Shown here piece by piece: positions 2,822-34,263 of a stretch of 59,134 nt of DNA. Each line of letters starts with the position of its first letter. Within the stretch, counting starts at the first letter, position 1. The notes under the pieces were generated by a model, which was not told the origin of the DNA, made no database searches, and was given only the letters and a program-made list of their open reading frames with translations. Source of the DNA: Armatimonadota bacterium (lineage in GTDB: Bacteria; Armatimonadota; UBA5829; JAUSEB01); the NCBI GenBank assembly GCA_030649165.1, contig JAUSGG010000103.1, positions 1 to 59,134 of the forward strand, written 5' to 3'. The position numbers and the translations under genes were made by a program.

Positions 2822-3859
2822 CTATCCTGCACCGGTAGACTTGTATATCCCATCCAGTATCGCCGTCACGGCGACCCCCTGCTCCGGAGTCACTATCGGC
2901 GTCTTGCCCTCAAGCACACAGTCCACAAAGTGCTCCATCGGCGAAGAGCCGGGCATGTCGATTCTTGGAACCGTCGTAACGTACTGCCCCGCCGCCTGGC
3001 CGAACAGCTTCACCGGCTGGCCGCTCTCCCGATGCGCCCCGCCCTTGTCGCCGTAGAATGCCTGGACGATCTTCTCCTGCTCGATGTACGAGCCGAAGCT
3101 GGCCTCGAACTGCATTGACATCCCGTTCTCGAACTTGGCGAACCCGACGGAGTGGTCGTCCGCGTCGCTGGGGACACCGTAGCTCTTCAACACCTCCGGC
3201 AGGAACTTGTTGTAGGCTACGCCAACGACCTGTTTCACCTTCGGGAAGCCCGTCAGGTACATTGCGAGGTCAACGATATGCGAGCCGAGGTCGGTCGCCA
3301 CGCCGCCGCCCATGGATTTCTCATTAAACCAGTTGCGGCTGTAATTGCCGGTGAGGCGAGGCGCGTCGGCCCGCGGGAAAGCGCCCATTGCTCTCCGCCA
3401 CGCAGTGCGGACGAAGTAGATGTCGCCAAGGTGTCCCTCGTCGATATACTTCTTCAGATACTGAATGTCCGAGCCGAAACGCTGATTGTAGCTTATCATC
3501 AGCGTCTTGCCGGTCGCCCTGGCGGCGTCCGCCATAGCCTGTGCCTTCTCGGCGTTTGCGGCCATCGGCTTCTCGCAGAGGACGTGCTTGCCCGCGTTCA
3601 GCGCGGCGATGGTAACAGCATCGTGGAAAACAGTCGGCAGGCATACCGCCACCGCGTCCAGTTCATCGCAAGCCACCAACTCCTCCCAGGAAGAGAATGC
3701 GTATCGGGTTCCCCAAGCCTGTTTGCAGTGGTCGAGCCAGGCATTATCCTTGTCGCAAATCGCGACCACTTCGGCCCGGGGCAGACTGTTGAAGGCAGTG
3801 ACATGCCCATGGCCGATACCGAGGCCGATAACGCCGACTCGAAGCTTTCCATTAGTCAA
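2822..3859 (-). CDS. Gfo/Idh/MocA family oxidoreductase
   Basis: This is an NAD(P)-dependent sugar or cyclitol dehydrogenase-like protein. The N-terminal Rossmann fold begins VGVIGLGIGHGH (residues 8-19). EKP at 96-98 is the family's catalytic/cofactor-binding motif, and GGG-x4-DLGSHIVDL around 184-198 supplies the conserved Asp and His of the C-terminal alpha/beta domain. The length (345 aa) is typical. The start is a TTG at 3859 with AGGAGG about 9 nt upstream. It lies upstream of a URO-D gene on the same strand, separated by an inverted repeat. Such enzymes usually oxidise a hydroxyl of a sugar or myo-inositol derivative in the cytoplasm; the substrate here is unknown. Confidence 0.92.
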   Translation of the reverse strand: MTNGKLRVGVIGLGIGHGHVTAFNSLPRAEVVAICDKDNAWLDHCKQAWGTRYAFSSWEELVACDELDAVAVCLPTVFHDAVTIAALNAGKHVLCEKPMAANAEKAQAMADAARATGKTLMISYNQRFGSDIQYLKKYIDEGHLGDIYFVRTAWRRAMGAFPRADAPRLTGNYSRNWFNEKSMGGGVATDLGSHIVDLAMYLTGFPKVKQVVGVAYNKFLPEVLKSYGVPSDADDHSVGFAKFENGMSMQFEASFGSYIEQEKIVQAFYGDKGGAHRESGQPVKLFGQAAGQYVTTVPRIDMPGSSPMEHFVDCVLEGKTPIVTPEQGVAVTAILDGIYKSTGAG

Positions 3860-3892: not shown

Positions 3893-4062
3893 GAACGCAG
3901 ATGAACGCTGATACCAAGGATAAACGCAGATTCAGATGTAGGGAGATATGGAATGCGGCAGGATTTCCGGCTCTTCGTAATGTCTCGACCCAGCAACCTG
4001 CCTTGGTCTTTATCCCTCTCTATCCGCGTTCATCCTCCTCATCCGCGTTAATCTGCGTCTTT
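3893..4062. repeat. inverted repeat pair of the 'AACGCGGAT/CGCAGAT' type
   Basis: The left arm (about 3893-3936) carries GCAGATGAACGCTGAT and GGATAAACGCAGATTC. The reverse complement of the right arm (4021-4062) reads GCAGATTAACGCGGATG and then GGATGAACGCGGATAG. The arms match over about 39 nt at roughly three quarters identity and could fold into a long hairpin around an 85-nt loop. The right arm supplies the last few codons and the stop of the URO-D gene ending at 4048. This wording of repeat is widespread in intergenic DNA of many bacteria; its function is unknown. Confidence 0.65.
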
Positions 4063-5127
4063 CCCTGAACCGAAGCTCCCGCACTCACGGGCAAGCTCAA
4101 GCATGTATTGGTACTTCTCAAGCGAGACGTTGTCCGGTATGCTGTGGTCGGAGGCGAAAATGTAGCCCCCGCCTTTGCTCGCCATCGTCACCTTCTCCCG
4201 GACCTCTTTTTCGAGCACGGCGGGGGCGTCGTGCGCGATGGCGCGAACGTCGATTCCGCCCCACAGGGCCAATACATCACCGTATTCCTTCTTCAGCTCG
4301 AATATGTCCATCCCCGCCTTGACCTCCAGCGGGTTGAGGACGTCGAACCCGGCTTCTATGAACAGCGGCACGAGTTCCATGTTCATCCCGCAGGTGTGCA
4401 GCATAACCTTGATCCCGCGCGCGCGGCAGAAGTCGCAGAACAGCTTCTGACAGGGCATAATCATCTCCCGATACGCTCCCGGTGAGAAGAACGCCCGGCC
4501 CTTGTAGCCCATGTCCTCCGTTATGAACGCCGCGTCGAACTCGAAGCCGTGGCCCAGCAGGTATTCCAGACCCTCGATGGCAAGCGTCGCGGTGGACATA
4601 AACATCTCCCCAGCCCAGGCGGGATCCGCCGCCATCGCAATCAACACGCCCTCCGTTCCCATCACGTACTTGAATTTCTCGAATCCGAGGCAGGCCGGCA
4701 TGTAGACGTGGAACTTGTCCCTGTTCGCTTCCCACGTGGACTTCGCGGCCCGCGCGTCGACCCGGCTTCCATTCCAGGCAAATCGCTGCTTATGCTCCTC
4801 CCAGCTATTGCGGTCCGTGACCGTGAAATCCCACCAGAACGGAGTGGAATCGTGGCCTTTGAAGCTCTTCTGCATCACGCCGTTGTTGGTGCGGCTGATG
4901 ATATACTCGTCGGTCTCCTCGATCGTCTCCGGCCGGAACTGAAGCGTCCAATCAACTCCGGTGACGCATTGAGGGTCGAGACCGAAGTAGCTCACCAGAT
5001 CGGCGTTCTCGGGCAGTCCCTCCGAACGCCACCTGGCAATAGTGGATCCCCAGAAGCTCTCCCACATCGGTACGCGGTCGGCTTCCTTATGGTTGATTGC
5101 GGCGAGTATTCGCTCTTTGCTGGTCAA
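4048..5127 (-). CDS. uroporphyrinogen-decarboxylase-like (URO-D superfamily) protein
   Basis: The protein (359 aa) opens MTSKERILAAINHKEADRVP, a typical start for catabolic URO-D superfamily members related to MtaA/CmuA methyl-corrinoid methyltransferases rather than haem-pathway HemE. Further on, VMLHTCGMNMELVPLFIEAG and DVLNPLEV then LALWGGIDV match the conserved beta-strands around the active site of the TIM barrel. The start is TTG at 5127 after AGGAG; the truncated paralogue at 6679 begins with ATG at the equivalent codon. Members in glycan loci may move or remove methyl groups, but this is an inference. The last codons come from the flanking repeat, so the C-terminus may have been altered. 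Confidence 0.88.
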   Translation of the reverse strand: MTSKERILAAINHKEADRVPMWESFWGSTIARWRSEGLPENADLVSYFGLDPQCVTGVDWTLQFRPETIEETDEYIISRTNNGVMQKSFKGHDSTPFWWDFTVTDRNSWEEHKQRFAWNGSRVDARAAKSTWEANRDKFHVYMPACLGFEKFKYVMGTEGVLIAMAADPAWAGEMFMSTATLAIEGLEYLLGHGFEFDAAFITEDMGYKGRAFFSPGAYREMIMPCQKLFCDFCRARGIKVMLHTCGMNMELVPLFIEAGFDVLNPLEVKAGMDIFELKKEYGDVLALWGGIDVRAIAHDAPAVLEKEVREKVTMASKGGGYIFASDHSIPDNVSLEKYQYMLELARECGSFGSGKDAD

Positions 5128-10309: not shown

Positions 10310-11164
10310 TCAAAACACAAACTGCGACAGGTACTGCTTTCCGATAATCAGCCCTTCCTGCGTCCGCTCGCCGTGGAACACCGGGTCTTCGTGCTCGATC
10401 ACAACATTTCCGTCGAACCCGCCTTCCCGCAGGACCTGGAACAGGGCGGGCCAATCCACCTCCCCATATCCGGGCAGCCGGAACCGCCAGTAGCCCTTGA
10501 GTGAGAGAATGCCGCCGCGGTCGAGTTCCTCGTCCAGAATCTCCGTGTCCTTACCGTGCAGGATGTAGATTCGCGACACGAACTCCCGCGCCGCCTCGAC
10601 CGGGTCGATGAACTGGAAAACCAAATGCGACGGGTCGAACTCCAGACCGAGCGTGGGTGAATCGACCTCGTTAAACACCTTCTCCCAGGTCTCGGGATTC
10701 ACGGCGATGTTCTGGCCCTTGGGGTAGCCGTGCAGGCAGTTCTCGAAAACTATCCGGACATTGTTGTCGTCCGCGACTTTGACCAGTTCACGGTAGACCT
10801 TGCCGAACAGCTTCACGTTGTCGTCGAGGCTGATCTCCGGGTTCTGGCCGGACGTACTGGAGAAATAAGGAATCCCCAGCTTGCCGGCGATGACGAGCAT
10901 CTGCTTGAAGTAGTCCAGATGCGCTTTCGCCGCGGCCGGGTCCGCCGACATCGGGTTGATAGCCGTAATGATCGAGCCGACCTCTATTCCCGATCTGTCG
11001 ATAGCGCCCCTGAAGTCGTCGATCTTCGCCTGCGAGTCCAGCTCTTTCGGCAAATCCATCCCGGCCCAGCCCGGAAGCGTCGTGAATTCCAGGCAGTCGA
11101 ACCCCGCTTTTTTCGCGAACTCAAAAGCTTTCAGATTGTCGTAAGTCGTGTATCCGAGTCGCAT
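10310..11164 (-). CDS. sugar phosphate isomerase/epimerase family protein (xylose isomerase-like TIM barrel)
   Basis: This 284-aa TIM barrel belongs to the AP-endonuclease-2 superfamily. The metal-binding residues sit in recognisable places: IVFENCLH (Glu), LGLEFDPSHL (Asp and His), YILHGKD (His) and VVIEHEDP (Glu). The start MRLGYTTYDN is preceded by GAGGAG. Family members interconvert keto and aldo sugars or sugar acids, or dehydrate inositol derivatives, in the cytoplasm. The gene follows the large toroid-symporter pair on the same strand, so it may process the imported sugar. The exact substrate is unknown. Confidence 0.88.
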   Translation of the reverse strand: MRLGYTTYDNLKAFEFAKKAGFDCLEFTTLPGWAGMDLPKELDSQAKIDDFRGAIDRSGIEVGSIITAINPMSADPAAAKAHLDYFKQMLVIAGKLGIPYFSSTSGQNPEISLDDNVKLFGKVYRELVKVADDNNVRIVFENCLHGYPKGQNIAVNPETWEKVFNEVDSPTLGLEFDPSHLVFQFIDPVEAAREFVSRIYILHGKDTEILDEELDRGGILSLKGYWRFRLPGYGEVDWPALFQVLREGGFDGNVVIEHEDPVFHGERTQEGLIIGKQYLSQFVF

Positions 11165-11216
11165 TCGTGTCTCCTCTCTTGAAGCTGTGCTTTGGGCGAA
11201 TCCGCTCCACAGCGCC

Positions 11217-14200: not shown

Positions 14201-15410
14201 CCGGACTCGAGTAGCTCTGCAGGAGCGCCCATTTCTCCTTGTCGTTGCTGGAATAGATATCAACGCCCTTCCACGCGCAGGGTGTGCGGAAAGTGTTGAA
14301 GTAATGCACGAATCGCGAAACGGCCACGGGCCGACGGTAGTCGATCACCAACTCGACGGGTTTGTCGGGAGTAGGAGCGTCGGCGCGCCAATAGTTGCGC
14401 ACGTAAGGCTGAGACAGGCTCGTCGGGTAGCCGTCGAACGCCCATCGCGGTCCGTAGGGCCATCCGGGAGGCCAGGGCTGGCCCGAAACTGTGTTGGTCG
14501 CGGTGACGCGGACCGAATTGTTGTAGTAGTCCCACTTTGCGCAGGACGCGGCCGGCGCCCGACCGAGACCGGGCAGGTTCGCAGCGGCCGGCGGTTCGAT
14601 TGGCCGCGGCGCCGATGCCCCCGCGCTCACGCCGATCCGCTCACGGTCGGAGTCGAAGTTGGCTCTGATCTCCTCGCCTGACAGAGCCCGGTTATAGACC
14701 CGGACAATCGCAAGCGAGCCGATCAAACCGTCCGCCTCGACAAAGTCGTTCTCCGGGTGGCGGGCCGCGCCCAACTGCCACTCCGCTCGGTGGTCCTTCT
14801 GCGGGGAACGCGGCGAGGAAAGAGAGGTCTGTTGTGCTCCGTTCACGTAGATGCGGGCAAGCCCATCCTTCAGCGCAATCGCTACCTGCTGCCATTCGCG
14901 CACGGCGAACTCCGCGTCCGACACGGTGAAAGTCGCCCCGTTCAGCAGCATCGGCGATTCGCTGACAGGCTGGACCATCAACGATACTCCGCCCTGTCCG
15001 AAGTCGTTGCCGATCAGGGTCGCGCCCCGAAGAGTATGGCCCTCTACCAATGCCCATGCCTCCAACGTCGTCTCAGCAAGCTCGATGTTGCCCGGCCCGA
15101 GCACGTAGCTCGTCTTGCCGTCGAAGCGCAGCGCGTACGGATCGCCCGGCGCGCCACTTCCGACCCACCCGGAGGAGCCGTCGAAGCGGAAGCCATGAAG
15201 CGTCCCCGGACCCGCAACCGAGTCGGGGGAGCCGGCGAGGTTCCTCCACGTGTCATTTGCCGGCCCCGTTCCGCCGGATTTGACCTGTGACGATGCGTCC
15301 AGATACAGAATCAGACCATTCCTGGTCACGTCGCCCGACGCAGCTACGATCGCCACCAACGTTAACGCCGTCGCGATTACGACCAGCTTGCCCACGGCAT
15401 TCCCTCTCAC
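11217..15410 (-). CDS. very large secreted LamG/discoidin/alpha-toroid protein
   Basis: The protein has about 1397 residues. After an N-terminal signal or anchor (KLVVIATALTLVAIVAA) there is a LamG/concanavalin-like domain at about 30-255 (GLILYLDASS, LEAWALVEG, GLIGSLAIVRVYNRALSGEEI). A discoidin-like domain follows at about 300-460 (RWAFDGYPTS, VSRFVHYFNTF, ARFYRIVIR), then CARDB/Ig-like domains at about 475-650. An alpha/alpha-toroid region at about 880-1240 has repeated WLLSVQ and GWPYAF-type motifs. This suggests glycan binding coupled to a lyase- or hydrolase-like barrel. I chose GTG 15410, whose GTGA overlaps the symporter stop; TTG 15422 is possible. No family number can be assigned. 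Confidence 0.78.
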   Translation of the reverse strand: MRGNAVGKLVVIATALTLVAIVAASGDVTRNGLILYLDASSQVKSGGTGPANDTWRNLAGSPDSVAGPGTLHGFRFDGSSGWVGSGAPGDPYALRFDGKTSYVLGPGNIELAETTLEAWALVEGHTLRGATLIGNDFGQGGVSLMVQPVSESPMLLNGATFTVSDAEFAVREWQQVAIALKDGLARIYVNGAQQTSLSSPRSPQKDHRAEWQLGAARHPENDFVEADGLIGSLAIVRVYNRALSGEEIRANFDSDRERIGVSAGASAPRPIEPPAAANLPGLGRAPAASCAKWDYYNNSVRVTATNTVSGQPWPPGWPYGPRWAFDGYPTSLSQPYVRNYWRADAPTPDKPVELVIDYRRPVAVSRFVHYFNTFRTPCAWKGVDIYSSNDKEKWALLQSYSSPAPERSYLTLPPDAPQVLGIEVPSPARFYRIVIRSLADGAPRIETHEIETYYGDAIGSVDTINPHLRQSEGWGSDVTVCANVFSEEIAKGMTMKMTAPEGTLVGMKSAQVRSGPLGGASSFDVLPLKSGRIPVVFELYCKGILIDRRPHTIVVEPKLAFKDISPAGAVTAKPGDVVTLKGTLTNAGGIAAEDVKVSWMGQSVRLGGIARDGSATFEIKAKARPGYSAGLLTATDARCARSMLRRAVICPTKTKIGAPNGSLMLRSAENGLLLSSDAAGGNPLTGKLALIAAGKSVDLTPVSADKVVAAVPGGVLAIRIVSIGGDQALKCAVVPDDPESIRPPWLDLELRLAVDKPKIMFRPHIDWYEAAKGPNAPYLTNGHNSATRMLCVETTDGATLSMVPNTDNMTWGFNKDNEMVVQLQMPLAPNPPGRWRPIWEAPMDFTLRLPVRKGDWWDAYRHAVKDVFKFEQARQWAMPITQMQMLSARYTLRSEVWSEKWQTVRSHPWFDFFYNFYGTTYTLPTLYSWYLVTDDMVAREKAAKVLDWLLSVQVKEGPTAGAWFSQYGVEGDPPRLVGRDQANNRWVMPHSTATAAKTLLWYWEASGKKDARAFAAAKQGVDWLVNTQRADGGWPYAFDLEGKPVTDLADAGQIWNTWGLWKMWEYTNDARYRDAAIRSKDFFKKTFMDVHRYMGYWEDVSGASGKVHRSWEGYEPAIAALVFADMGDKQLAVEAAKDAATWTWTRVISTRQYETGYGETTEQSLCGPSQAQSPMVGIGAERVLELTGDPIWSDFAGAMKSVNFACDPDQAYGMVATGGWDDPLTGVVGPPYENVRPWVTPNISKGDEYGRQVWNEWCTNQFAWLALEWLVREGNIRAPQYVKIDPNTYRGSVLGLPGRVKMPEEKCDVNGIDHYDINWVGYQNDANYVLLLMNHKEKVTVAVRPHEAHLDVYTKAPKVLIGSGRTYEPASVVKKGVQYFVDIPAKGSAVLVWDRIK

Positions 15411-17023
15411 CACATCCACCAATAAGCAACAACTGTAACAACGCTCAAACCGGCAAGCTGCAGCCGCCAGTCCTTGAGGCCCTGAAACGCCTCGATTTTC
15501 CCGCCCCAGTCCATGGTCGTCTTCTCCAGTTGCTTGGGAGAAGTCTTCTCAGTGAAAGCGGACACGAGGAACAGAGTCGCAATCACGCATAGGGTCCCCC
15601 ATAGCCCTCGGTAAGTGTAGTTCAGCGTTAGATCGGTGTGCAGCCACGGGAACAAGCGAGACCCCGTGGCGGGGCCGACCAGTTGATCGGTAACGAATAC
15701 CGCCGCCAACACGACACCGACCATTACTGAGGCCGCGGCGCCTTTCAAAGTCACCCGTTTGCTCATGATCCCGAAGGCAATCGCCGGAGTAATCGGCATA
15801 ACCAGGTAGATTGAGATCGTTTGGAGATACTTATAAAGACCGTCCTGGGTAATAGAAACCATATAGGCGGCCGCTACTCCGAGCGTCGATGCCGCCAATA
15901 TGGCAATTCTGCCCAGATTGACCTGCGCCCGCTCGCTCGTATCCGGCCTGTGCCGCATCAGGAAGTCGCGCACCGTCAGCGTGGAGATCGAGTTCATTAT
16001 CGCGAGCAGCGAGGATATCATCGCCGCGAGCAGCGACGCCAGCAGCAGCCCGCGCAGCCCCGGCGGAAGAAGATGGTTCAGGAGCCACACGAAAGTCCAC
16101 TTTGTGCCCACGCCGGTGAGGGGGGCGTCCTTGGACAACACGTAGGCGATGACCCCGGGCAGGGCGAATATGAACACCGGCGTGAGTTTGAGCAATATGG
16201 CGAACATCGCCCCCCACCGGCTCTGCTGCAGATCTCGCGCTCCCAGCAGGCGCTGAACGTTCACCTGGTCCATTCCCCAATAGAAGATGCCACCGTAGAT
16301 CGCGCCCATTATCACGCCCCAGAACGGGAAATTCGGGTCATCGTAAGGCTTGTGCATGTGCATGGCCGCGCCGGCTTGCGCGCATAGCGAATCCCATCCG
16401 CCGACCTTGTCGAGTCCGATAATCAACATCGTCCCGCTGCCGACGAGCATGATCGCGGTCTGAATGGCATCGGTATACGCGACCGTCGTGAACCCGCCGA
16501 TCATGGTCACCACGGCCACGACGCCTGCGAGGACCGCCACGGTCGGCATGATCTCCCAGCCCGTCAACCCGTTGATCACAAGGGCGCCGGCGAATAGCGT
16601 GAATGCGGTTTTCGTCATGATGCATATCACGAGCATCAGGCCGGAGAAGAACGTGCGCGCGCCGGCGCTGTAACGCATTTCCAGAAACTCGGGAATGGTG
16701 AAGACCTTGTTCTTGATGTAGTGCGGAAGCAGGATCGCCGCCGTAAAGCCGAGGCACATCGCCGTCGTAAACTCCACCGTGCCTGCGCAAATCCCATAAC
16801 GATAGGAATCCCCCGACAGCCCGACCAGATGCTCCGCGCCGATGTTGGTCGCAAAGAGCGAGGCTCCGACCACAGGCCACTTAAGCGAACGCCCAGCCAG
16901 GAAGAAGCCGGCGCTGCTCGCCCCTGAGTGGGCGCGCACCGACATCCACAGTCCGATGAAAATGCTCGCCAGTAAGGCGGTGAGACAGACTATCCAATCT
17001 AGCGCCGTAAGCGAGAGACTCAT
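15407..17023 (-). CDS. sodium:solute symporter (SSS/SGLT family)
   Basis: This 538-aa membrane protein has about 13 hydrophobic helices, with SSS-family signatures such as GFFLAGRSLKWPVVGASLFATNIGAEHLVGLSG at its start (about residues 39-71), then FTIPEFLEMRY and GGFTTVAYTDAIQ. Family members carry sugars, amino acids or organic anions across the inner membrane with sodium. GGGAGG lies about 7 nt before the ATG. Its stop overlaps the start of the giant LamG-toroid gene, so the two are translated together, which suggests that extracellular breakdown and uptake act on the same substrate. The glucuronate-isomerase-like gene lies just upstream on the same strand. Confidence 0.94.
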   Translation of the reverse strand: MSLSLTALDWIVCLTALLASIFIGLWMSVRAHSGASSAGFFLAGRSLKWPVVGASLFATNIGAEHLVGLSGDSYRYGICAGTVEFTTAMCLGFTAAILLPHYIKNKVFTIPEFLEMRYSAGARTFFSGLMLVICIMTKTAFTLFAGALVINGLTGWEIMPTVAVLAGVVAVVTMIGGFTTVAYTDAIQTAIMLVGSGTMLIIGLDKVGGWDSLCAQAGAAMHMHKPYDDPNFPFWGVIMGAIYGGIFYWGMDQVNVQRLLGARDLQQSRWGAMFAILLKLTPVFIFALPGVIAYVLSKDAPLTGVGTKWTFVWLLNHLLPPGLRGLLLASLLAAMISSLLAIMNSISTLTVRDFLMRHRPDTSERAQVNLGRIAILAASTLGVAAAYMVSITQDGLYKYLQTISIYLVMPITPAIAFGIMSKRVTLKGAAASVMVGVVLAAVFVTDQLVGPATGSRLFPWLHTDLTLNYTYRGLWGTLCVIATLFLVSAFTEKTSPKQLEKTTMDWGGKIEAFQGLKDWRLQLAGLSVVTVVAYWWMW

Positions 17024-17042
17024 ATATCACCCTCCCAAGACC

Positions 17043-18371
17043 CTACAAACCTAACAACCGCGGTGTATCGAACAATATCTCCTTCGCAATCCCAACCGCC
17101 GTCTCCACGTCGTATTGCCCGTCTTCCACCTTCCCGGCGAGTACTTTCGCCAGTTCCCACTTCACGATAAGCGCTTTCGCATAGGCCCACTCGACGCAAT
17201 AAGCGTCAGAGAAGAAACCAATCTGCTTATTCACGGGGAGCATGTCCAGCCGTTCCTCCATCACGCGCCGTATTATCGACGGGAAGAAGTTGTGCCACCA
17301 GTATCCCGCCACGGACAGATTGGGAAGCTCGCGGCACAGAGTGCAGATAGCCTGGTTTGCATGTTGGCTGGAAAGGAAACACTGGAACCGCAGCTTTGGA
17401 TGCCGCCCGATCATCTCCGCAAGTTGGCCAACCGTCTTCTGCGACAGCCGGCTCGCCGTCTCGAACGGCAGCGGCTCCGCGCCAAAGCTGAATTGGAAGA
17501 CGATCTTATCCGCGTACTTTTGCTCCAACTCGGTCAGAAACAGCTCGTTGATGTAAGAAGCGTAAACGTCGCGCTCGGCCGGTCCCGCGTTTTCTCGCCG
17601 CGCTAACGCTGCTTCCATTTCCGCATCGCTCACCTGACGCAGGTCAATATCGGTGGAGATGTGCGTCGCCATCGAGATAACTTGATCTGTCGGGATATGA
17701 TCGACGTACCACTCAACCGCCTCGCGCGCATCGTCCAGCGAACGGACAACTCTTTCCGTAGCCGGTCGCTTCCCGCCGCCTATTGGAGTTGGGCTTTCAG
17801 GAGTCTTTCCCCAGCGCCGCTCAAGCTCATACAAAGCTGTGTCGAACTCGCCCCATTGGCAGCGGGTAAAGAAGGCCCACTCCAGCGAGTAATCGAGAAT
17901 ATCGTCATCTTGCCCGCTCTCCCGGCGGGCAATCTCCGTTCCGAACCGTTTGATTCCCGCGCGGCGGATTATCTCTCGATGCCAGTTGCGGTCATCAGCG
18001 CGCTCCCGGATAAGACCGTCGAGGTTCCGCCAGTTTTCCGGCGTGATCTTATCCGCCCAGCCATAGAGGTCCCTCAATATGACGCGGATGCCCCAGGAGA
18101 TGCTCGTGTTTCGCACATAATCGAGGTAAGGTAACGCCTCGCTGATGCGGGCGTGCGCCTCTTCGTCCGTGGGCCACTCAGGATATTGTGTAAGCCGGTT
18201 TCCGCTCGGACACCCCGCGGCATAAAGATCGCTCACCGCCATGTGATAAAGCAGGATGTCGTGCAGACCTCGCGCGGATAACTTCCCGCCGACCAGATGC
18301 GTGTGAACATCTATAGTGGGCAGTTCCCGGATATGTTCACGAAGCGCTTTTGCGATTTCGACTTGATTCAC
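17043..18371 (-). CDS. glucuronate isomerase-like (UxaC-type amidohydrolase fold) protein
   Basis: The 442-aa protein begins with a helix and then PTIDVHTHL (HxH metal site), as in the amidohydrolase superfamily. ENWRNLDGLIRERADDRNWH and the C-terminal stretch with WWHNFFPSIIRRVMEERLDMLP and GFFSDAYCVEW resemble the uronate isomerase branch, where the barrel ends with a conserved F-x-D region. Similarity to true UxaC is partial, so it may act on a different uronate or be a related hydrolase. The start is GTG 18371. It is transcribed towards the symporter (20-bp gap), which fits uptake followed by isomerisation of a uronic acid. Confidence 0.68.
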   Translation of the reverse strand: MNQVEIAKALREHIRELPTIDVHTHLVGGKLSARGLHDILLYHMAVSDLYAAGCPSGNRLTQYPEWPTDEEAHARISEALPYLDYVRNTSISWGIRVILRDLYGWADKITPENWRNLDGLIRERADDRNWHREIIRRAGIKRFGTEIARRESGQDDDILDYSLEWAFFTRCQWGEFDTALYELERRWGKTPESPTPIGGGKRPATERVVRSLDDAREAVEWYVDHIPTDQVISMATHISTDIDLRQVSDAEMEAALARRENAGPAERDVYASYINELFLTELEQKYADKIVFQFSFGAEPLPFETASRLSQKTVGQLAEMIGRHPKLRFQCFLSSQHANQAICTLCRELPNLSVAGYWWHNFFPSIIRRVMEERLDMLPVNKQIGFFSDAYCVEWAYAKALIVKWELAKVLAGKVEDGQYDVETAVGIAKEILFDTPRLLGL

Positions 18372-18406: not shown

Positions 18407-18481
18407 ATTGACCTCACCCCAGCCCTCTCCTGGAAGGAGAGGGAGTTCCCCCTCCTCTTAGGAGGGGGTTAGGGGGAGGTT
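18407..18481. repeat. 75-bp CCTCACCCC repeat, copy 2
   Basis: This element is identical to 10219-10293 over all 75 bases. The last codons and stop of the DeoR gene (ending LTNLPLTPS) lie inside it, so the element landed on, or donated, the gene's 3' end. The two hairpins could end or slow transcription of the DeoR gene. Confidence 0.92.
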
Positions 18482-19267
18482 TGTCAAATCCTCGGACCGC
18501 GACGCCACCACGACCTTCACCCCTGCTTGCCGAATCTCCTCAAGCGCTGCCTCATCAGCCCTGTCATCCGTGACGAGCGTTCCAATAGCGTCAAGCGGCG
18601 CTGCTCTATACAGCGCGGACTTGCCCAGCTTACTTGCGTCGGCGACAACGATGATTTCGGAGCAGCTCCGTATCATGGCTTTTTTCACCTCGGCTACGAG
18701 CTGCATATCGGCGAAAAGCCCGTCCTCCGGCGAAAAGGCGTTCGCCCCAAGTATCGCCTTGTCCGCGGCAAGTTCCGCGATTTGGCTTTCGGTTGTCGGG
18801 CCGGACGTAGCGCCGCTCTCGACTAACAACAACCCGCCGAGCACGACGAGGGACACATCCTTCCTGGTAGCGATAGCCTGTGCGACATCCAGCGAGTTCG
18901 TGACCACCGTAAGATCGCCTACAGGCAGATGTCGCGCGACTTGATAGGTGGTGAAGCCGCCGTCAAGCATCACACAGTCCCCCGGTCTGACAAGCCCGGC
19001 CGCCACGCGTCCTATAAGCTCTTTCTCCACGGGGTTTACGCGCCTGCTGTCAGCCAGCGTAATGGCGGGGCGCGCGACTTCGGACCGCTCGGCTCCTCCG
19101 CGCAGCCTTCTTATCAGGCCTCGCCGCTGTATGGAAGTGAGGTCTCTGCGCACTGTCGGCCGCGAGACTCCGAGGGTCTGCGCGATCTCCTCTACGGAGG
19201 CGCGTCCCTGATTCTCCACCAGCTCGATAATCCTTTCCCAGCGTTCGGGCAGTATGGTTCCTTGCAA
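18458..19267 (-). CDS. DeoR family transcriptional regulator
   Basis: The 269-aa protein has an N-terminal winged helix (residues about 5-57: RWERIIELVENQGRASVEEI, then LGVSRPTVRRDL and RGLIRRLRGGA). A DeoR-type sugar-phosphate sensor domain follows at about 75-235 with GDCVMLDGGFTTYQVA and ADKAILGANAFSPEDG. The start TTG 19267 is preceded by GGAGG at 6 nt. It is divergent from the PfkB-RuBisCO-like operon and is probably its repressor, responding to a phosphorylated intermediate. The C-terminus is encoded by the CCTCACCCC repeat, so its last nine residues may not be ancestral. Confidence 0.92.
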   Translation of the reverse strand: MQGTILPERWERIIELVENQGRASVEEIAQTLGVSRPTVRRDLTSIQRRGLIRRLRGGAERSEVARPAITLADSRRVNPVEKELIGRVAAGLVRPGDCVMLDGGFTTYQVARHLPVGDLTVVTNSLDVAQAIATRKDVSLVVLGGLLLVESGATSGPTTESQIAELAADKAILGANAFSPEDGLFADMQLVAEVKKAMIRSCSEIIVVADASKLGKSALYRAAPLDAIGTLVTDDRADEAALEEIRQAGVKVVVASRSEDLTNLPLTPS

Positions 19268-19320
19268 ACTTGACCTCCGAGGGCGATGCTGGAATCAGCA
19301 TAACAGGTATCAGCGCCGGC

Positions 19321-19410
19321 AGTCAATAGTAACGATCAATTTCTGATCTATTTGAGAGCGCTATTTGACTGCAATCCTTGACAAGCGCGCGCCAAATAGA
19401 CTACAATTCA
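19321..19410 (+). promoter_or_regulatory. sigma70 promoter with repeated operator-like sequences for the RLP operon
   Basis: TTGACA (19378-19383) and TACAAT (19402-19407) are separated by 18 bases, a near-consensus promoter. Around it, AGTCAATAG (19321), TCTATTTGAG, GCTATTTGACT and CAAATAGACT form direct and inverted copies of a CTATTTGA half-site. These are good candidates for the binding sites of the divergent DeoR regulator; the inner copy lies between the -35 and -10 boxes, where binding would block transcription. Confidence 0.65.
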
Positions 19411-19444
19411 ATCGCCGTTAGCGCAAAGCTCGAAGGAGCATCGA

Positions 19445-20356
19445 TTGAGCAAACCGCCCGTGGTGGCAGCCGCCGGTATATGCTGTCTTGATTACATAGT
19501 CACCTCGCCCCGCGTTCAGTGGGGAGATACGGCGTGGGTGACCGACTTCCGCGCGCAGGGAGGAGGACTGGCCGCTACGGCCATGGTCGCATGCGCGAGG
19601 CTGGGGGCAGACTGTTCTCTGCTCAGCCTGTTGGGTGACGATCAGGTCGGCGACGTTATCCTGTCTGAGCTTGCAGCGGAAGGGGTGCGGACCGACGGTG
19701 TCGTCCGTGTCTCCGGAGGACAAAGCCCCTTGAGCTTCATCCACGTTGACGAAGCCACCGGAGAGCGGACCATTTTCCACAAGAAGGGCGCGTCTCTCGG
19801 CGGAGCGCCGCCGGCCGAAGCAACCCTGTTGTCGGACGTCCAGGCTCTGCTGATCGATGACATCTATCCGGCTCTCGCAATGGACGCCGCGAGACTCGCC
19901 CACGAGCTTGGGGTACCCGTGGTGGCGGACCTCGCATTCAGCTCGGGCAGTTCGGACATTCTCCGCCAGGTCGATGTGTTTATCGCCTCCCGCCACTATG
20001 CTCGCGAGATCGGATTTGGCGATGCACCGGAGTCGGCGCTGGACGAAATCCACCGGCTTGGTCCGAAGACGGCGGTCATCACACTCGGCGCGGACGGATA
20101 CGTCTGGTCGGACGATGCCGGACGCGGCGTGGGTGAGGCGTTCAGAGTTGACGTGGTGGACACGACCAGCGCCGGCGATGCTTTCCACGGCGCATTCTGT
20201 TACGGCCTGGCATGCGGTTGGGAAACCGCCAGATGCTGCGAGTTCGCCGCGGCTGTTGCGGCGATCAAATGCACTCGTCCCGGAGGGAGAACCGGATTGC
20301 CGTCTCTCGACCAGACGATCGCTTTCCTGCAAGGTAGAAGCAAGCTGGATTGGTGA
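19445..20356 (+). CDS. PfkB-family carbohydrate kinase
   Basis: This 303-aa ribokinase-fold enzyme has the N-terminal GGG-LAAT substrate-binding region (residues 39-45) and the C-terminal signature DTTSAGDAFHGAF (239-251), with D245 the expected catalytic base. It phosphorylates a sugar or sugar derivative with ATP in the cytoplasm. The TTG at 19445 is preceded by AAGGAG at about 8 nt. It is the first gene of the operon and lies 3 bases before the RuBisCO-like gene. The substrate is unknown, but neighbours suggest a phosphorylated ketose or sugar acid that feeds the RuBisCO-like enzyme. Confidence 0.93.
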   Translation: MSKPPVVAAAGICCLDYIVTSPRVQWGDTAWVTDFRAQGGGLAATAMVACARLGADCSLLSLLGDDQVGDVILSELAAEGVRTDGVVRVSGGQSPLSFIHVDEATGERTIFHKKGASLGGAPPAEATLLSDVQALLIDDIYPALAMDAARLAHELGVPVVADLAFSSGSSDILRQVDVFIASRHYAREIGFGDAPESALDEIHRLGPKTAVITLGADGYVWSDDAGRGVGEAFRVDVVDTTSAGDAFHGAFCYGLACGWETARCCEFAAAVAAIKCTRPGGRTGLPSLDQTIAFLQGRSKLDW

Positions 20357-20359
20357 AAC

Positions 20360-21775
20360 ATGAAACTGCTTGACTCGGATATCCTGAACACAATGAAGCT
20401 GAACCTGGACGCGCGCGAACAGGTAATTCGCAAGGCGATCCGCGAGGCCCTATCCGAACTGAGCCCCCCGGACCTTTCGGACCAGATCGTTGTCACGTAT
20501 TGGGCGCATGCCGCGCATCTCTCGCCGGCTCAGGTCGGCAGAGAGATAAGCTACCACATGACCAGCGGCGCGCGCAACCCTCCGGAGGGGTCCCTGCTCG
20601 ATCAGTGCACCGGGCGAATCCTCGATTCGGTGGACTTCGACGACACCGGCCGAATAGGCATAGTGCGAGTGGGTTTCCCGCTCAAGATGCTTCGCCGTGA
20701 GGACGGCGGACTCTACTCGACGGACATCCTCCACATAACCGCGGGAGAGGGGGTGTTCGGACTCGTCGAGAATATCGATATCAAGCTATGCCACATTGCG
20801 ATGTCCGACGATACGTTGCGGCTGTTCCCCGGTCCGGCGTACGGAGCCCCAGGCGTCCGCGCGCTTACCGGTTTTGGAGACCGCGTAGCGTTCGGCACGA
20901 TACTCAAGCCCTGCACGGGGATTACCCCCGACGAGGAGGCCGACATAGTGGCCGAGGCAGCGGCCAATCCGCTGTTCATGTTTGTCAAGGAAGATGAGAA
21001 CCATCTGCCCTCAGCGGCGTTCGCCCCGCTGCGCGAGCGACTGAGACTGTCCCTGGAGGCCGTCAGGCGCGTATCCGATCAGCGCGGCGGCCTCGGACTG
21101 ATCTTCGCTCCGCACATCACGTCCCCGCCTCAGCATATCGCGGACTGCGTCAGGATTTGCGTCGACGCCGGCGCAAACGGCGTGATGTTCAGCGAGCTGT
21201 TCGCCGGCGGGATCACTCGGATGGTGCGAGACATGACCAGGGACCTCCCCTGCCCTCCGGCGATCTACGCCCACAATGGGGGCATCTCAGCCCGGACACG
21301 GCACATCTGGCGCGAGGTCCTCGATCTGTTATGCCGGCTCGACGGCGCCGACTTCCGCCAAACCGCGCCTGTCACGAGTTCGGAGCCACTCCTGCGCCCG
21401 TTCGGGCTGGAGTGGAAGAATTGTGAAGACGCCCTGAGTATGCCGCTTGCGGGCCACCCTCCCACAATGATGGCGCGCGCCGGCGGGCTCGACCAGGGCA
21501 ATATTATCGCCAACCTTCTCGACGTCGAGCGAGGAGCCGGCGCCGCGAATTACCTGTTTCTTGCCGGCTCGGCAATCAACGGCATCAAGGACTCAAATGG
21601 TCATTACGACCCCGCTCTGGGCGCGGAAGCCATGCTCCAGGCGCTCCGGGTTTATCGGGACGGCGTCTTCGCGGAGGCTACCGAGGACCACGTCAACCAA
21701 CTCAAAGCATACGCGGACGCCAATGGCCTTACTGCTCTAAGCGCCGCCCTCCGCCAGCGCTACGCCTTGCCATAA
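20360..21775 (+). CDS. RuBisCO-like protein (form IV type)
   Basis: The 471-aa protein has the RuBisCO large-subunit fold. FGTILKPCTGIT keeps the lysine equivalent to K175 (here K183), and FVKEDENH keeps the carbamylated lysine and metal ligands (K210, D212, E213). IYAHNGGIS carries the following histidine (H305). The flexible loop-6 lysine of true RuBisCO (K334) is not evident: the region reads RQTAPVTSSEPLLR. The phosphate site GG motif is ARAGGLDQGN. It is therefore a RuBisCO-like enzyme that probably enolises, isomerises or decarboxylates a phosphorylated substrate, not a CO2-fixing enzyme. The kinase upstream likely makes that substrate. Confidence 0.9.
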   Translation: MKLLDSDILNTMKLNLDAREQVIRKAIREALSELSPPDLSDQIVVTYWAHAAHLSPAQVGREISYHMTSGARNPPEGSLLDQCTGRILDSVDFDDTGRIGIVRVGFPLKMLRREDGGLYSTDILHITAGEGVFGLVENIDIKLCHIAMSDDTLRLFPGPAYGAPGVRALTGFGDRVAFGTILKPCTGITPDEEADIVAEAAANPLFMFVKEDENHLPSAAFAPLRERLRLSLEAVRRVSDQRGGLGLIFAPHITSPPQHIADCVRICVDAGANGVMFSELFAGGITRMVRDMTRDLPCPPAIYAHNGGISARTRHIWREVLDLLCRLDGADFRQTAPVTSSEPLLRPFGLEWKNCEDALSMPLAGHPPTMMARAGGLDQGNIIANLLDVERGAGAANYLFLAGSAINGIKDSNGHYDPALGAEAMLQALRVYRDGVFAEATEDHVNQLKAYADANGLTALSAALRQRYALP

Positions 21776-21904
21776 GCGCTGTCTTAGCGGAAAGCGCGAA
21801 ATACACGAAACCGGGAAAGGAGCGGACAGCGATTTTGTGGTTCAACACTATCGTTAGGTGCTAGCTACCAGCGACTAACCACTAAGCGCCAACCACTGAC
21901 CACT
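21776..21904. repeat. gap with short CTAACCACT-type repeats
   Basis: No gene is seen. About 21855-21903 holds degenerate, roughly 10-base repeats (GCTACCAGC, CTAACCACTA, CCAACCACTG, ACCACTATG) running into the cupin start codon. A similar run, TTAGTGGTTAGTGGCTAGTG, lies at about 41919-41938, in the opposite sense, after the beta-propeller gene. Confidence 0.55.
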
Positions 21905-22291
21905 ATGAACGACCGCAACACACGAAGACCAGTCCGAGGCCCCATCTCCACGGTGACCAAACCCTGGGGGGGCGAAGAGCTTCTTGCCCACACCGACCTC
22001 TACGCCCTGAAGAGGATACATGTGAAGGTCGGCTCTCGTCCAAGCCTCCAGTACCACGAGCGCAAGAGCGAGTCGCTATACCTGCTCTCCGGACGCATGA
22101 AGATCGAGATTGGCGACACCAGGGACTCGCTCGTGGAGGACCATCTCCGGCCCGGCGACAGTGTTGACATAGCCGCGGGCACGGTCCACCGCATTACGGC
22201 CCTCGAAGACTCGATTCTGATCGAGGTCTCGACTCCCGAGTTGGACGACGTTGTGCGAATTGAGGATGACTATGACCGGGCAACCAAGTAA
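21905..22291 (+). CDS. cupin, mannose-6-phosphate isomerase-like
   Basis: The 128-aa single-domain cupin contains SLQYHERKSESLYLLSGR, LRPGDSVDIAAGTVHRI and LIEVSTPELDDVVRIEDDY. These match the C-terminal domain of type II mannose-6-phosphate isomerases, with two His, one Glu and a later His available to bind a metal. It may be a sugar-phosphate isomerase by itself. It overlaps the next gene by 20 bases. It lies in the RuBisCO-like operon, so it probably interconverts an intermediate of that pathway in the cytoplasm. Confidence 0.88.
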   Translation: MNDRNTRRPVRGPISTVTKPWGGEELLAHTDLYALKRIHVKVGSRPSLQYHERKSESLYLLSGRMKIEIGDTRDSLVEDHLRPGDSVDIAAGTVHRITALEDSILIEVSTPELDDVVRIEDDYDRATK

Positions 22292-23450
22292 ACCGCGAAT
22301 AGTCATCATCGGCGCGGGAGCTAGCGGCAGGGGACACATCGGCCAACTCGCGCACGACGCCGGCTTTTCGATCACGTTCATCGAACGCAGAAAAAACCTG
22401 GTTGACATCCTGAAAGAGGCAAGGCGGTATACGGTCGGCCTTGCGGGCGCACGGATACGCGAGCTTGCGATCAGCGGCTTCGACACACTCCATACGGATG
22501 AAGTAGAAGCGTGCGCCGCTGCTATCGCGGATGCGGATATCGTCGCAACTGCCGTCCTTCCTACTAACCTTCAATCCACAGTCCCGACGCTCGCGGCAGG
22601 GCTGGCTCTTCGCCGATCGCTCGGCGTCGATAGGCCATTGAACGTCATAGCCTGTGAAAACATGGAGCGCAGTTCCACCACGCTGCTATCCTACCTTATG
22701 GAGGGTTCGCCTGAGCTCGACTGGAAATGGCTGGACGCCCACGTGGGCTTTCCCGACTCGATGATAGCTCGCGCGGTTCCGGCCCCGAAGGATGCCCCGT
22801 TGGCGCTCCTGGCCGAGTCCACTCAGGAATGGTCTGTCGATCTGAACGGGCTGGCAGAGCCTATGCCCCGGCTTGCCGGCATGACGCTCAGCGCCGGCCA
22901 GGACGCGGCTCTCGAACGGAAGCTATACATAAAGAACACGGGGCACATGTCGATCGGTGTCCTCGGCTTCCTGAAAGGTTACAGGCTTATGGACGAGGCC
23001 GCAAGGGACCCCGAGATATTCCGTCAAGTGGACGCGGCAACAAAGGAGTCCGCGGCGGCTGTCGTCGCTAAGCACGGGTTCCGCCCCACTGCAACCGAGG
23101 AATACCGAACGTTGTTTCTCGAAGGCATGAGATCGCCATTCCTGCCCGATGACGTTTCGCGAGTCATCCGAGAGCCGATCCGAAAGCTTACGAGAGAGGA
23201 AAGGCTGGTCGGCCCGGCTATGCTCGCTTGCGAGTACGGTGTCATTCCCACAGCGTTGGCCGGGATAATAGCGGCCGTTTTTGCCATCGATAACCGTGAT
23301 GACCCTCAGTCGGTCGAGCTTCTCGGCCGCATCGCGGGCGACGGCATCGACTCCGTGATCGAGAACGTCTGCGGAATTCCTAAGGGCCACGCGTTGGCCG
23401 GATTAGTGCGCCGGGAATACGAGCGGACCGGCCGATCGCCGTCCCGGTGA
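22272..23450 (+). CDS. mannitol dehydrogenase-type NAD-dependent oxidoreductase
   Basis: The 392-aa protein begins with a Rossmann fold (RIVIIGAGASGRGHIGQL, about residues 9-26). The C-terminal helical domain has LYIKNTGHMSIGVLGFLKGY and ends in the style of mannitol-1-phosphate 5-dehydrogenases. NVIACENMERSS and VGFPDSMIARAVP correspond to the conserved catalytic-domain entry (N-x-D-x4-R region). I chose ATG 22272 because GAGG sits 6 nt upstream; an ATG at 22266 and TTG at 22251 are alternatives. It likely oxidises a polyol phosphate to a ketose phosphate, which could then pass to the kinase, cupin and RuBisCO-like enzyme. Confidence 0.88.
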   Translation: MTGQPSKPRIVIIGAGASGRGHIGQLAHDAGFSITFIERRKNLVDILKEARRYTVGLAGARIRELAISGFDTLHTDEVEACAAAIADADIVATAVLPTNLQSTVPTLAAGLALRRSLGVDRPLNVIACENMERSSTTLLSYLMEGSPELDWKWLDAHVGFPDSMIARAVPAPKDAPLALLAESTQEWSVDLNGLAEPMPRLAGMTLSAGQDAALERKLYIKNTGHMSIGVLGFLKGYRLMDEAARDPEIFRQVDAATKESAAAVVAKHGFRPTATEEYRTLFLEGMRSPFLPDDVSRVIREPIRKLTREERLVGPAMLACEYGVIPTALAGIIAAVFAIDNRDDPQSVELLGRIAGDGIDSVIENVCGIPKGHALAGLVRREYERTGRSPSR

Positions 23451-23530: not shown

Positions 23531-24463
23531 TCATCTCCGTGTCAGCGTGCCGCAGTCGGTGAGTTCGCCTCGGATTGATTCCAGGACGTGTGGGATTATG
23601 GCTCTGAGCAGGTCAAGGCTTTCCGATACCGCTCGCTTGCTGCCGGGAAGATTCACCACCAAAGTGCGTCCTCGCAGGCCGCTTACTCCCCGCGACAGGC
23701 ACGCATAAGGCGTGTGTCGCATACCTTCTGTCCGCAGCGCTTCGGATATTCCCGGGGCCTGGGAGTGGAGGATGGCGAGTGTGGCCTCCGGCATCCTATC
23801 CCTTGCGGTAAAGCCGGTTCCGCCTGTGGTCAGAACGATGTCAACCGCGCATCTGTCCGCAAGATGCGCGAGTTTTGAGCTTAATCCGGTCTCGTCATCG
23901 GGGAGAACGGAGTAGTCCGCTAGCGCAACACCAATCTCAGCCATGAGGTCGACCAGAAGTCGTCCGCTTTCGTCTTCTCTCTCGCCCGCGGCGCAGCGAT
24001 CGCTTGAGGTCAGGACTGCCCCAACCTTGACGGTCGTGCGTTCCACCCGGTCGCCAACACTGATCCGGCCCCCCCGCATGACCTTGGCAAACACGCCTTC
24101 GCGCGGCATTATGCAGTCGCCCAGCCTCTGTCCGATGCTGCACGGTGTGTTACAGACCTTGCCGATATCCGATATCTGCACGATCGCGTCTGACCCCACA
24201 AGCAGGCGATCAGCCAGCCTTATTGAACCGAGGTCCAGCCCCCGCGTGGTAATGTTCTCGCCGAAATCGCCGGGGGCCAGTTCCACACCCCGATTCAGCC
24301 CCTTGGCGATAGACTCGGACGCAAGCAAGCTGACTTGGCGGGCTTCTCCGGCGTGAGCATCACCTTCGATACCCAATCCGGCGACCAGCACGGCCTCGGG
24401 AACCGCGGATTTCCTCGTTCCCTTTTCCAATGAGGTGTTCAGCGATTGGATTATGCCGGTCAC
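23531..24463 (-). CDS. MOSC domain - MogA fusion (molybdopterin adenylyltransferase)
   Basis: The 310-aa protein joins two domains. Residues about 1-145 are a MOSC domain (GIEGDAHAG, LAPGDFGENITT, GKVCNTPCSIG with a likely Mo/S-binding Cys). Residues about 146-300 are MogA/MoaB-like (AVLTSSDR, VDIVLTTGGTGFTARD, VVNLPGSKRAV), which activates molybdopterin by adenylation before molybdenum insertion. GTG start overlaps the MoaC stop by four bases (GTGA), with GGGAGG upstream. It is the last gene of the minus-strand arm of the molybdenum island. MogA works with MoeA, which is encoded at the other end of the island. Confidence 0.93.
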   Translation of the reverse strand: MTGIIQSLNTSLEKGTRKSAVPEAVLVAGLGIEGDAHAGEARQVSLLASESIAKGLNRGVELAPGDFGENITTRGLDLGSIRLADRLLVGSDAIVQISDIGKVCNTPCSIGQRLGDCIMPREGVFAKVMRGGRISVGDRVERTTVKVGAVLTSSDRCAAGEREDESGRLLVDLMAEIGVALADYSVLPDDETGLSSKLAHLADRCAVDIVLTTGGTGFTARDRMPEATLAILHSQAPGISEALRTEGMRHTPYACLSRGVSGLRGRTLVVNLPGSKRAVSESLDLLRAIIPHVLESIRGELTDCGTLTRR

Positions 24464-24942
24464 GGTTTTTCCTCCCGAACGTAATGCCCGGTCTTGCCTC
24501 CGGACTTCTCGACCAGACGGATGTCGCTGATGGTCGCCGCGCGGTCGATTGCCTTGATCATGTCATACAGAGTGAGTGCGGCAACGGACACAGCCACCAG
24601 CGCCTCCATCTCGGCCCCCGTTTTCGCCCGACAAGAGACTTCGGACTTTATTTCAACTCGCGGCGGGTTCGGGCGCGGCAGCATATCTATCTCTACGTTG
24701 TCCAATGGGATGCTGTGACAGAGCGGGATGAGTTCGTCGCATCGTTTGGCGGCCATAATCCCCGCCAGCCGGGCGGCGGCGAAAACGTCCCCCTTTGGCG
24801 TCCTGCCCTCGGCAATAGCGGCGAGCGTAGACTCCGCGAGGTATACCGTACCCATTGCCCTGGCGCGGCGGGCCGTTACGTTCTTCTCCGACACGTCAAC
24901 CATTCGCGCCTTGCCTTCCTCATCCAGATGGGAGAGACTCAT
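24460..24942 (-). CDS. moaC: cyclic pyranopterin monophosphate synthase MoaC
   Basis: The 160-aa protein has the typical MoaC sequence: ARMVDVSEKNVTARRARA, GDVFAAARLAGIMAAKRCDELIPLCHSIPLDNV and YDMIKAIDRAATISDIRLVEKSGGKTG, all near their usual positions. It converts the MoaA product into cyclic pyranopterin monophosphate, the first molybdenum-cofactor intermediate. It is translationally coupled to the MOSC-MogA gene. Together with moaA, moeA and mobB at 29.6-40.6 kb it makes up most of the pathway; MoaD, MoaE and MoeB/ThiF were not seen in the window. Confidence 0.96.
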   Translation of the reverse strand: MSLSHLDEEGKARMVDVSEKNVTARRARAMGTVYLAESTLAAIAEGRTPKGDVFAAARLAGIMAAKRCDELIPLCHSIPLDNVEIDMLPRPNPPRVEIKSEVSCRAKTGAEMEALVAVSVAALTLYDMIKAIDRAATISDIRLVEKSGGKTGHYVREEKP

Positions 24943-28984: not shown

Positions 28985-29611
28985 ATGGGCAAGCGATTGT
29001 GGACGGGAGAAGAAGTGCTGAGCCGCATTCGGAGCCTCAGCGAGGCTGGTGGAGACCTTGCGCCGGGGACCGTAGCTAAGATAGCCCCCCGTCTGCTCAG
29101 CGCCGCTTGCAGGTACTTTGGGAGCTGGGGTCAGGCCGTGGAGGCCATCGGAATTGATTATTCCGCCCTGCTTGAAACGGCGCACCGGCGAGCGGGGGAA
29201 AACAGATCGAAGTGGAGCAGGGAACGCATCCTGGAACGCATCCGGGCTTTAGCGGAGAAGAACGAAACGCTGGCCACGACGATCGTATCCCTCAAGTACG
29301 GAGATCTCTACAGCGCCGCTTGCTCGCCGCGTTACTTTAACGGATGGGCTAAGGCTGTCGAGGCGGCTGGAATTCGGGTCGAGCAGAAGAAGCCGGGGAA
29401 GCCCAGCAAACACCTCGCCGATCTCGCCAGGTGGAAGGCGAACATGCTTCTCGAAAGAGTTTACCAGATTGCAGGAGACGGCTCAACAATTGATGAGCGT
29501 CTGATCCGGATGCTTGCTCCGGCGCTGCATGAGGCAACGGTCAAGCGTTTTGGTTCTTGGGCGAGGGCTCTTGAGTTTCGAAGCAGCCAGATCGGGGATG
29601 GAAATGGGTGA
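28985..29611 (+). CDS. triple-repeat protein (homing-endonuclease-associated repeat type)
   Basis: The 208-aa protein has three repeats of about 50 residues, at about 6-57, 77-130 and 150-197. Each has a leading Trp-x-x-E/K, an I-x-x-L helix and an end of the type AACRYFGSWGQAVEAIGI. The pattern matches the HNH/homing-endonuclease-associated repeat family (PF18780-like), thought to bind DNA. There is no endonuclease domain. AGGAG precedes the ATG, and the gene overlaps moaA by 8 bases. Placed between a receiver and moaA, it could be a DNA-binding output partner of the receiver; this is inference. Confidence 0.72.
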   Translation: MGKRLWTGEEVLSRIRSLSEAGGDLAPGTVAKIAPRLLSAACRYFGSWGQAVEAIGIDYSALLETAHRRAGENRSKWSRERILERIRALAEKNETLATTIVSLKYGDLYSAACSPRYFNGWAKAVEAAGIRVEQKKPGKPSKHLADLARWKANMLLERVYQIAGDGSTIDERLIRMLAPALHEATVKRFGSWARALEFRSSQIGDGNG

Positions 29612-34259: not shown

Positions 34260-34263
34260 CAAA

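Follow-up and report, generated by a model that had tools for sequence, protein, structure and literature searches.

A RuBisCO-like protein clade in a conserved sugar gene set, probably acting in acidic-sugar breakdown

Gene layout around the RuBisCO-like protein

The window, which is the whole stretch of DNA analysed (59,134 nucleotides from an Armatimonadota bacterium), belongs to a genome of 5.48 Mb and 99% completeness, and holds a gene for a RuBisCO-like protein (RLP) of 471 residues (20360..21775, + strand), assigned below to a clade termed T1, which matches the Pfam RuBisCO_large family with only 43 bits. This gene starts three bases past the stop codon of a PfkB-family, ribokinase-like sugar kinase (19445..20356, +; Pfam PfkB, 155 bits), and is followed by a cupin of the mannose-6-phosphate-isomerase type (21905..22291, +; Pfam MannoseP_isomer, 44 bits) and by an oxidoreductase of the mannitol-1-phosphate-5-dehydrogenase type (MDH; 22251..23450, +; NCBIfam, 266 bits; 3h2z, E=1e-61). 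The TTG start listed for the latter overlaps the cupin, and its true start may lie a few codons further downstream. Divergent from the kinase lies a DeoR-family regulator (18458..19267, −; DeoRC and HTH_DeoR). These five genes had been named by an earlier sequence-only reading, and open reading frames with homologues are indeed found where it placed them.

The 177 bases between the regulator and the kinase (19268..19444) form a divergent control region, known by consensus matches only. They contain a near-consensus, promoter-like TTGACA-18-TACAAT at 19378-19407, as well as copies of CTATTTGA at 19348 and 19361 and an inverted CAAATAG near 19393, all of them pattern matches. Two exact copies of CTATTTGA in the window are not significant alone; together with the inverted copy, these repeats constitute a candidate DeoR operator.

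The sequence-only reading had grouped the genes between 19445 and 23450 into one pathway. The grouping holds, while the span proved too narrow, as three genes on the opposite strand (10310-18371, −) belong to the same set. These encode a protein with the uronate-isomerase (amidohydrolase) fold, hereafter UI-like (17043..18371, −; 4i6v, E=2e-21; BH0493, E=2e-6), a sodium:solute symporter that is likely an importer (15407..17023, −; Pfam SSF, 206 bits; homologues in loci L092, L097, and L154), and a xylose-isomerase-like TIM barrel protein resembling IolE and epimerases (10310..11164, −; AP_endonuc_2, 125 bits). A large LamG protein (11217-15422, −) sits between the symporter and the TIM barrel protein, and the window also holds a Gfo/Idh/MocA dehydrogenase (2822..3859, −; Pfam) and a URO-D family protein (4048..5127, −; Pfam URO-D, 68 bits).

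The sugar cluster is flanked by molybdenum cofactor genes and a molybdopterin oxidoreductase (23531-24942, 29514-30602, 34201-36648, and 38797-40074), the former comprising a MOSC-MoaB fusion, MoeA, and, by inspection of the sequence, MoaC-like and MoaA-like proteins. Two DUF4838 proteins (50935-53094 and 55899-58007) and a GH42-like protein (42861-46058) are also encoded in the window and, together with the LamG protein, suggest polysaccharide use near the sugar cluster.

Clade and active site of the RuBisCO-like protein

Relatives were searched for in 291 Armatimonadota species and in one genome each for 84,980 GTDB species. The latter search returned 49 RLP loci, 48-74% identical, which make up clade T1, and whose records name the phyla Armatimonadota, Planctomycetota, Verrucomicrobiota, Chloroflexota, Acidobacteriota, Hydrogenedentota, Poribacteria, Latescibacterota, and Omnitrophota. 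Four records titled Akkermansia muciniphila (L071, L080, L088, and L095) carry the RLP cluster, and such names of metagenome bins may be wrong. In a tree with 34 other RLPs and RuBisCOs, the 44 T1 members included are monophyletic (SH-aLRT 100), and the OiaX/3nwr group, the MtnW pair, and a deep clade that includes a second RLP of the same genome each form one clade. T1 falls outside the OiaX + 3nwr clade in both the FastTree and the LG+C20 trees, although a joint clade of T1 and OiaX is not rejected (p-AU 0.32). The nearest group in both trees consists of the shorter RLPs T2 and T2b (support of at least 97), with T1 on a long stem. Among the sequences used, none of the characterised proteins belongs to T1, which stands as a clade of its own. 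The sequence-only reading had assigned the RLP to a new-looking pathway and named, as evidence against this, placement in a clade of proven reaction with the same neighbours; no such placement was obtained.

The T2 proteins are a second RLP type, approximately 30% identical, and adjoin the same cupin, mannitol-type dehydrogenase, or UI-like genes (L043 and L044; also L042). A UI-like protein is also found in two of the three genomes with T2, and, with the shared partner genes, this suggests that the two types are interchangeable and serve one function. The second RLP of the genome itself is apparently one gene split over two contig ends (L048, G000:C2, 9284-10231; L049, G000:C102, 17400-18152). 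Its neighbours are E1a, E1b, and URO-D genes on C2 and, on C102, an LsrF/DhnA-like aldolase or thiolase (recognised by inspection of the sequence), an RPE-like gene, and an SDR-like gene.

The AlphaFold2 model of the window RLP, built from 33 relatives, has a mean pLDDT of 90 and a RuBisCO fold. Its best Foldseek match is 2d69 (TM 0.84 over the target), and it is 17-23% identical to the top 50 solved structures matched. Among the curated NCBIfam models, it scores 76 bits with rubisco_III, 62 with OiaX, and 33 with MtnW, all far under the cut-offs (700 bits for OiaX, NF042437; 514 bits for MtnW, TIGR03332). The protein is a form IV member of the RuBisCO superfamily: it has the fold and it retains the K201 carbamate site with D203 and E204, a site not required of every RLP.

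As the sequence-only reading had noted, the carbamate lysine and the metal ligands are kept and the loop-6 lysine is absent. Residues K175, K201, D203, E204, and H294 are conserved in all 44 T1 sequences, none of which has a lysine aligned with K334. Across the same 44 sequences, R295 is replaced by Asn, H327 by Gln, S379 almost always by Ala, G403-G404 by Ser-Ala (with one Thr at 403), W66 by a basic residue, and E60 by His or Leu, and N123 is lost. A carboxylating RuBisCO of forms I-III is ruled out by the absence of K334, the changes of H327 to Q, R295 to N, and E60 to H/L, and the loss of N123, and the RLP is probably a distant relative of RuBisCO that does not fix carbon. By the residues conserved, the metal centre and the enolising base of T1 are intact and both phosphate sites are remodelled, which fits enolase-type chemistry in which no CO2 is added, and gives no clue to the substrate.

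Methionine salvage through MtnW is likewise ruled out by score, residues, and neighbours, in agreement with the sequence-only reading: the RLP is far under the MtnW cut-off and in a separate clade, and no methionine-salvage genes were found among the annotated neighbours or the recurring neighbour families. The same reading had set the locus apart from apionate-type pathways, and this distinction stands as well, as the OiaX-like loci examined all carry a four-carbon-acid-sugar kinase and none has PfkB. Membership in OiaX is ruled out by the score (62 versus 700 bits), the residues, and the presence of PfkB instead of that kinase.

The uronate-isomerase-like protein, the kinase, and a proposed pathway

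The main partner of the RLP, missed by the sequence-only reading, is the UI-like protein. Close homologues (at least 61% identical) occur in 17 of the 291 Armatimonadota species, including all 8 carriers of T1, which come from 8 families (hypergeometric 2e-11, with kinship ignored). Outside this phylum, UI-like homologues of at least 57% identity are present in 26 of the 35 T1 genomes. Both counts favour the pathway proposed below. Against it, no close UI-like homologue was found in the other 9 of these 35 genomes, five of which are Planctomycetota (L063, L081, L083, L087, and L091), where the RLP may consequently have another context. The genome of Tautonia sociabilis, a cultured carrier of the RLP, likewise has no close UI-like gene. 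The closest matches of the UI-like protein are 4i6v and the uronate isomerase BH0493, and it keeps the HxH metal motif (HTH near the N-terminus) and the C-terminal metal Asp (SDA, aligned with SDAR of BH0493). However, it reads SDAY where BH0493 has SDAR and 1j5s has TDSR, and the missing Arg after this Asp, which presumably has a functional role in uronate isomerases, counts against the proposed pathway.

The nearest solved relative of the kinase is sulfofructose kinase (7ag6, E=7e-39), an enzyme that makes the 1-phosphate of an anionic ketose. The residues that we take to bind the sulfonate in that enzyme, Asn109 and Arg138, are aligned with His and Ile in the window kinase, and a role in sulfoquinovose breakdown is not favoured because both are absent. 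Orthologues of the kinase adjoin the UI-like gene in other loci, and both genes are present in 11 of the 50 RLP loci where neighbours were counted by direct tblastn, many of which end at contig ends; this also supports the proposed pathway.

The association of these genes is beyond chance and recurs across phyla, and the gene set very probably represents one shared pathway, which probably serves the breakdown of acidic sugars. The sequence-only reading had instead proposed a polyol phosphate that is oxidised, isomerised, and then cleaved or decarboxylated by the RLP, a model that is not supported in this form: it rests on the less constant partners, with MDH in only 10 and the cupin in only 9 of the 50 loci, and a Gfo/Idh/MocA dehydrogenase elsewhere. 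As the UI-like protein and a kinase akin to an enzyme of anionic ketoses are the steadiest partners, an acidic sugar that enters through isomerisation and phosphorylation fits better than a polyol phosphate.

Sulfoglycolysis follows a logic of isomerase, kinase, aldolase, and DeoR-type regulator, and the breakdown of rhamnose or fucose one of isomerase, kinase, and aldolase. By this logic, the likely intermediate is a ketose 1-phosphate with an acidic end. In the best explanation of the gene set (isomerase, kinase, and then RLP or aldolase), to which a rough probability of 0.35 is given, the UI-like protein would isomerise an aldose acid to the ketose acid, which the PfkB kinase would phosphorylate to a ketose 1-phosphate with the acid group at the distal end; for a hexuronate, this would be 5-keto-hexonate 6-phosphate. 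The RLP, acting with a carbamylated K201 and a metal, would enolise this product and move the carbonyl two carbons toward the carboxylate, and the resulting 3-keto acid would lose CO2 to give pentulose 5-phosphate, which ribulose-phosphate 3-epimerase, where present, would hand to central metabolism. In loci without an RLP, an aldolase would split the same ketose 1-phosphate, and the dehydrogenase (mannitol type with the cupin, or Gfo/Idh/MocA with the TIM barrel protein) would feed in reduced or epimeric relatives of the substrate.

A precedent for such a branch point exists in Rhodopseudomonas palustris, where one ketose 1-phosphate can go either to an RLP with 1,3-isomerase activity or to a class II aldolase, the two enzymes competing for it (PMC5893883). 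Applied to 5-keto-hexonate 6-phosphate, we infer that a 1,3-shift would give a 3-keto acid, which is easily decarboxylated. Both isomerisations and decarboxylations are known among RLPs (PMC10176493), and the T1 protein may be an RLP that decarboxylates or rearranges its substrate. The specific reaction proposed here, with a carbonyl shift and CO2 loss, is a tentative and rather doubtful part of the proposal. Against the proposal, several phosphate-site residues of RuBisCO are changed in T1 (K334, W66, R295, H327, S379, and G403-G404), so that phosphate binding is only presumed. It is conceivable, though unlikely, that the RLP both shifts the carbonyl of a keto-hexonate phosphate and decarboxylates it, forming a pentulose phosphate in a reaction new to the RuBisCO superfamily. 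Hexuronates would then reach the pentose phosphate pool by a non-oxidative route in Armatimonadota, Planctomycetota, Verrucomicrobiota, and others.

Three RLP-less loci bearing the UI-like and kinase genes contain an aldolase, which is of class II in L154 and of the DhnA class I type in both L156 and L159, in favour of the proposed pathway. On the other hand, L058, L064, and L082 contain both an RLP and an aldolase, which counts against it and weakens the notion of the aldolase as a strict substitute for the RLP.

Variable neighbours, alternative reactions, and known systems

Among the 50 RLP loci, the Gfo/Idh/MocA dehydrogenase is found in 26, the TIM barrel protein of its type in 22, the UI-like protein in 18, an alpha/beta-hydrolase in 17, ribulose-phosphate 3-epimerase in 15, and the kinase in 12. 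Loci without the cupin and MDH have in their place the Gfo/Idh/MocA dehydrogenase, TIM barrel protein, hydrolase, and ribulose-phosphate 3-epimerase, in an order such as that of L071 (RLP, dehydrogenase, TIM barrel, hydrolase, epimerase, kinase, and UI-like). Both dehydrogenases overlap in one locus only, and the epimerase never shares a locus with MDH. A near relative on a 10-kb contig (L034) repeats most of the window set at 63-79% identity, without a kinase between DeoR and the RLP: its DeoR orthologue (63%) lies beside the RLP and its TIM barrel orthologue (78%) beside the MDH gene, and Gfo/Idh/MocA dehydrogenase (67%) and URO-D (65-79%) orthologues complete the cluster.

This distribution bears on a rival route that begins with oxidation: the dehydrogenase would produce a 3-keto acid, which the kinase would phosphorylate, and the RLP would be a plain decarboxylase of a beta-keto-acid phosphate like OiaX, a characterised sugar-acid RLP of apionate breakdown, with no carbonyl shift. 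A dehydrogenase of either type adjoins the RLP in most loci, the two types being almost never together, the epimerase lies downstream, the RLP matches the OiaX model (62 bits), and a grouping of T1 with OiaX is not rejected (p-AU 0.32). However, the score is far under the cut-off of 700, the kinase is of another family, K334 and the GGG phosphate loop kept in OiaX are absent in T1, and the UI-like isomerase is given no role. A route of this kind is considered improbable.

The identity of the partners has also raised the question of inositol. A likeness to iol genes is seen in the Gfo/Idh/MocA dehydrogenase, TIM barrel protein, kinase, aldolase, and DeoR protein, and on this reading the RLP might be an accessory of an inositol or keto-glycoside pathway, acting on a ring-opened inositol product. 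The best NCBIfam matches of several partners include the IolG, IolE, and IolC models, and the nearest solved relative of the window TIM barrel protein is a 2-hydroxy-3-keto-glucal hydratase (E=5e-10). All of these scores are, however, far under the equivalog cut-offs, no iolD, iolB, or iolA equivalog was found among the proteins scanned, and the UI-like protein is not explained, which makes this possibility very unlikely.

Other recurring neighbours would agree with an RLP that makes or tautomerises a diketone phosphate, like MtnW, leaving the cleavage of the diketone to a separate C-C cleaving enzyme, for which an alpha/beta-hydrolase, an acetolactate-synthase-like protein, an E1-type thiamine enzyme, or an LsrF-like thiolase would be candidates. 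In addition to the hydrolase in 17 of the 50 loci and an acetolactate-synthase-like protein in L061, E1 alpha/beta genes of the PDH or acetoin type lie near RLPs of four lineages (L051, L082, L042, L197, L198, L201, L048, and L106), namely T1 (L051 and L082), T2 (L042), the deep clade (L197, L198, L201, and L048), and a Vibrio RLP. However, T1 loci have no constant neighbour of these kinds, the search of the cluster in the window turned up none of them, and the E1 genes could serve pyruvate oxidation; this role of the RLP is judged unlikely. A plasmid of Vibrio nigripulchritudo carries an RLP with E1 genes and an FGGY kinase. For its part, the proposed pathway of isomerase, kinase, and RLP or aldolase leaves unexplained the E1-type thiamine enzymes, the alpha/beta-hydrolase, and the URO-D proteins, which also recur. 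An RLP that forms a diketone would explain part of this.

The RLP of clade T1 thus sits in a conserved sugar gene set of many little-studied soil and water bacteria, where it probably carries out a step in acidic-sugar breakdown. The reaction is known for just a few RLPs (PMC10176493). T1 is widespread in poorly cultured phyla, with an unusual active site and a steady gene partner, and these traits allow a direct search for its substrate. Should the proposed pathway be true, the RuBisCO superfamily would gain a reaction, and acidic sugars a new entry into central metabolism. The open-access literature contained nothing on RLPs with uronate isomerase in a full-text search, which is weak evidence of novelty given that coverage and a possible prior name of the clade. 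Full-text search for RLPs with apionate gave only one unrelated genome paper, and one for RLPs with Planctomycetes and decarboxylase gave no paper that, judged from its title or abstract, deals with the pathway. T1 is not categorically new, but represents a widespread, testable gap in the superfamily.

Several known systems resemble this gene set. OiaX, the 3-oxo-isoapionate-4-phosphate decarboxylase of the apionate pathway, is also an RLP beside a sugar-acid kinase with the carbamate lysine and metal ligands kept, but differs in the four-carbon-acid-sugar kinase, its own K334 and GGG loop, and its separate supported clade. MtnW, the 2,3-diketo-5-methylthiopentyl-1-phosphate enolase, shares the RuBisCO fold and the enolising residues, whereas the window RLP reaches 33 bits versus 514 and 18-21% identity in structural alignment, and lacks mtn genes nearby. 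RLP1 from R. rubrum and R. palustris, the 5-methylthioribulose-1-phosphate 1,3-isomerase, also works at a ketose-1-phosphate node open to an aldolase and has a cupin neighbour (PMC5893883). That cupin is a methylsulfurylase, unlike the mannose-6-phosphate-isomerase type of the window, near whose RLP no methionine-salvage genes were seen. RLP1 is outside the sequence set of the tree, where T1 is apart from the deep clade of the genome's second RLP, likened to DeepYkr by resemblance. The RLP oxygenase of the D-hamamelose pathway, likened here by its description, is another RLP in a sugar-acid pathway (PMC8914248). Finally, the sulfoglycolytic EMP pathway, with its isomerase, the SF kinase YihV, the aldolase YihT, and a DeoR-type regulator, has in common with the present set an isomerase, a PfkB kinase, a DeoR protein, and, in some loci, an aldolase, and differs from it in that here the isomerase has the uronate-isomerase fold, an RLP is present, and the presumed sulfonate-binding residues Asn109 and Arg138 are His and Ile.
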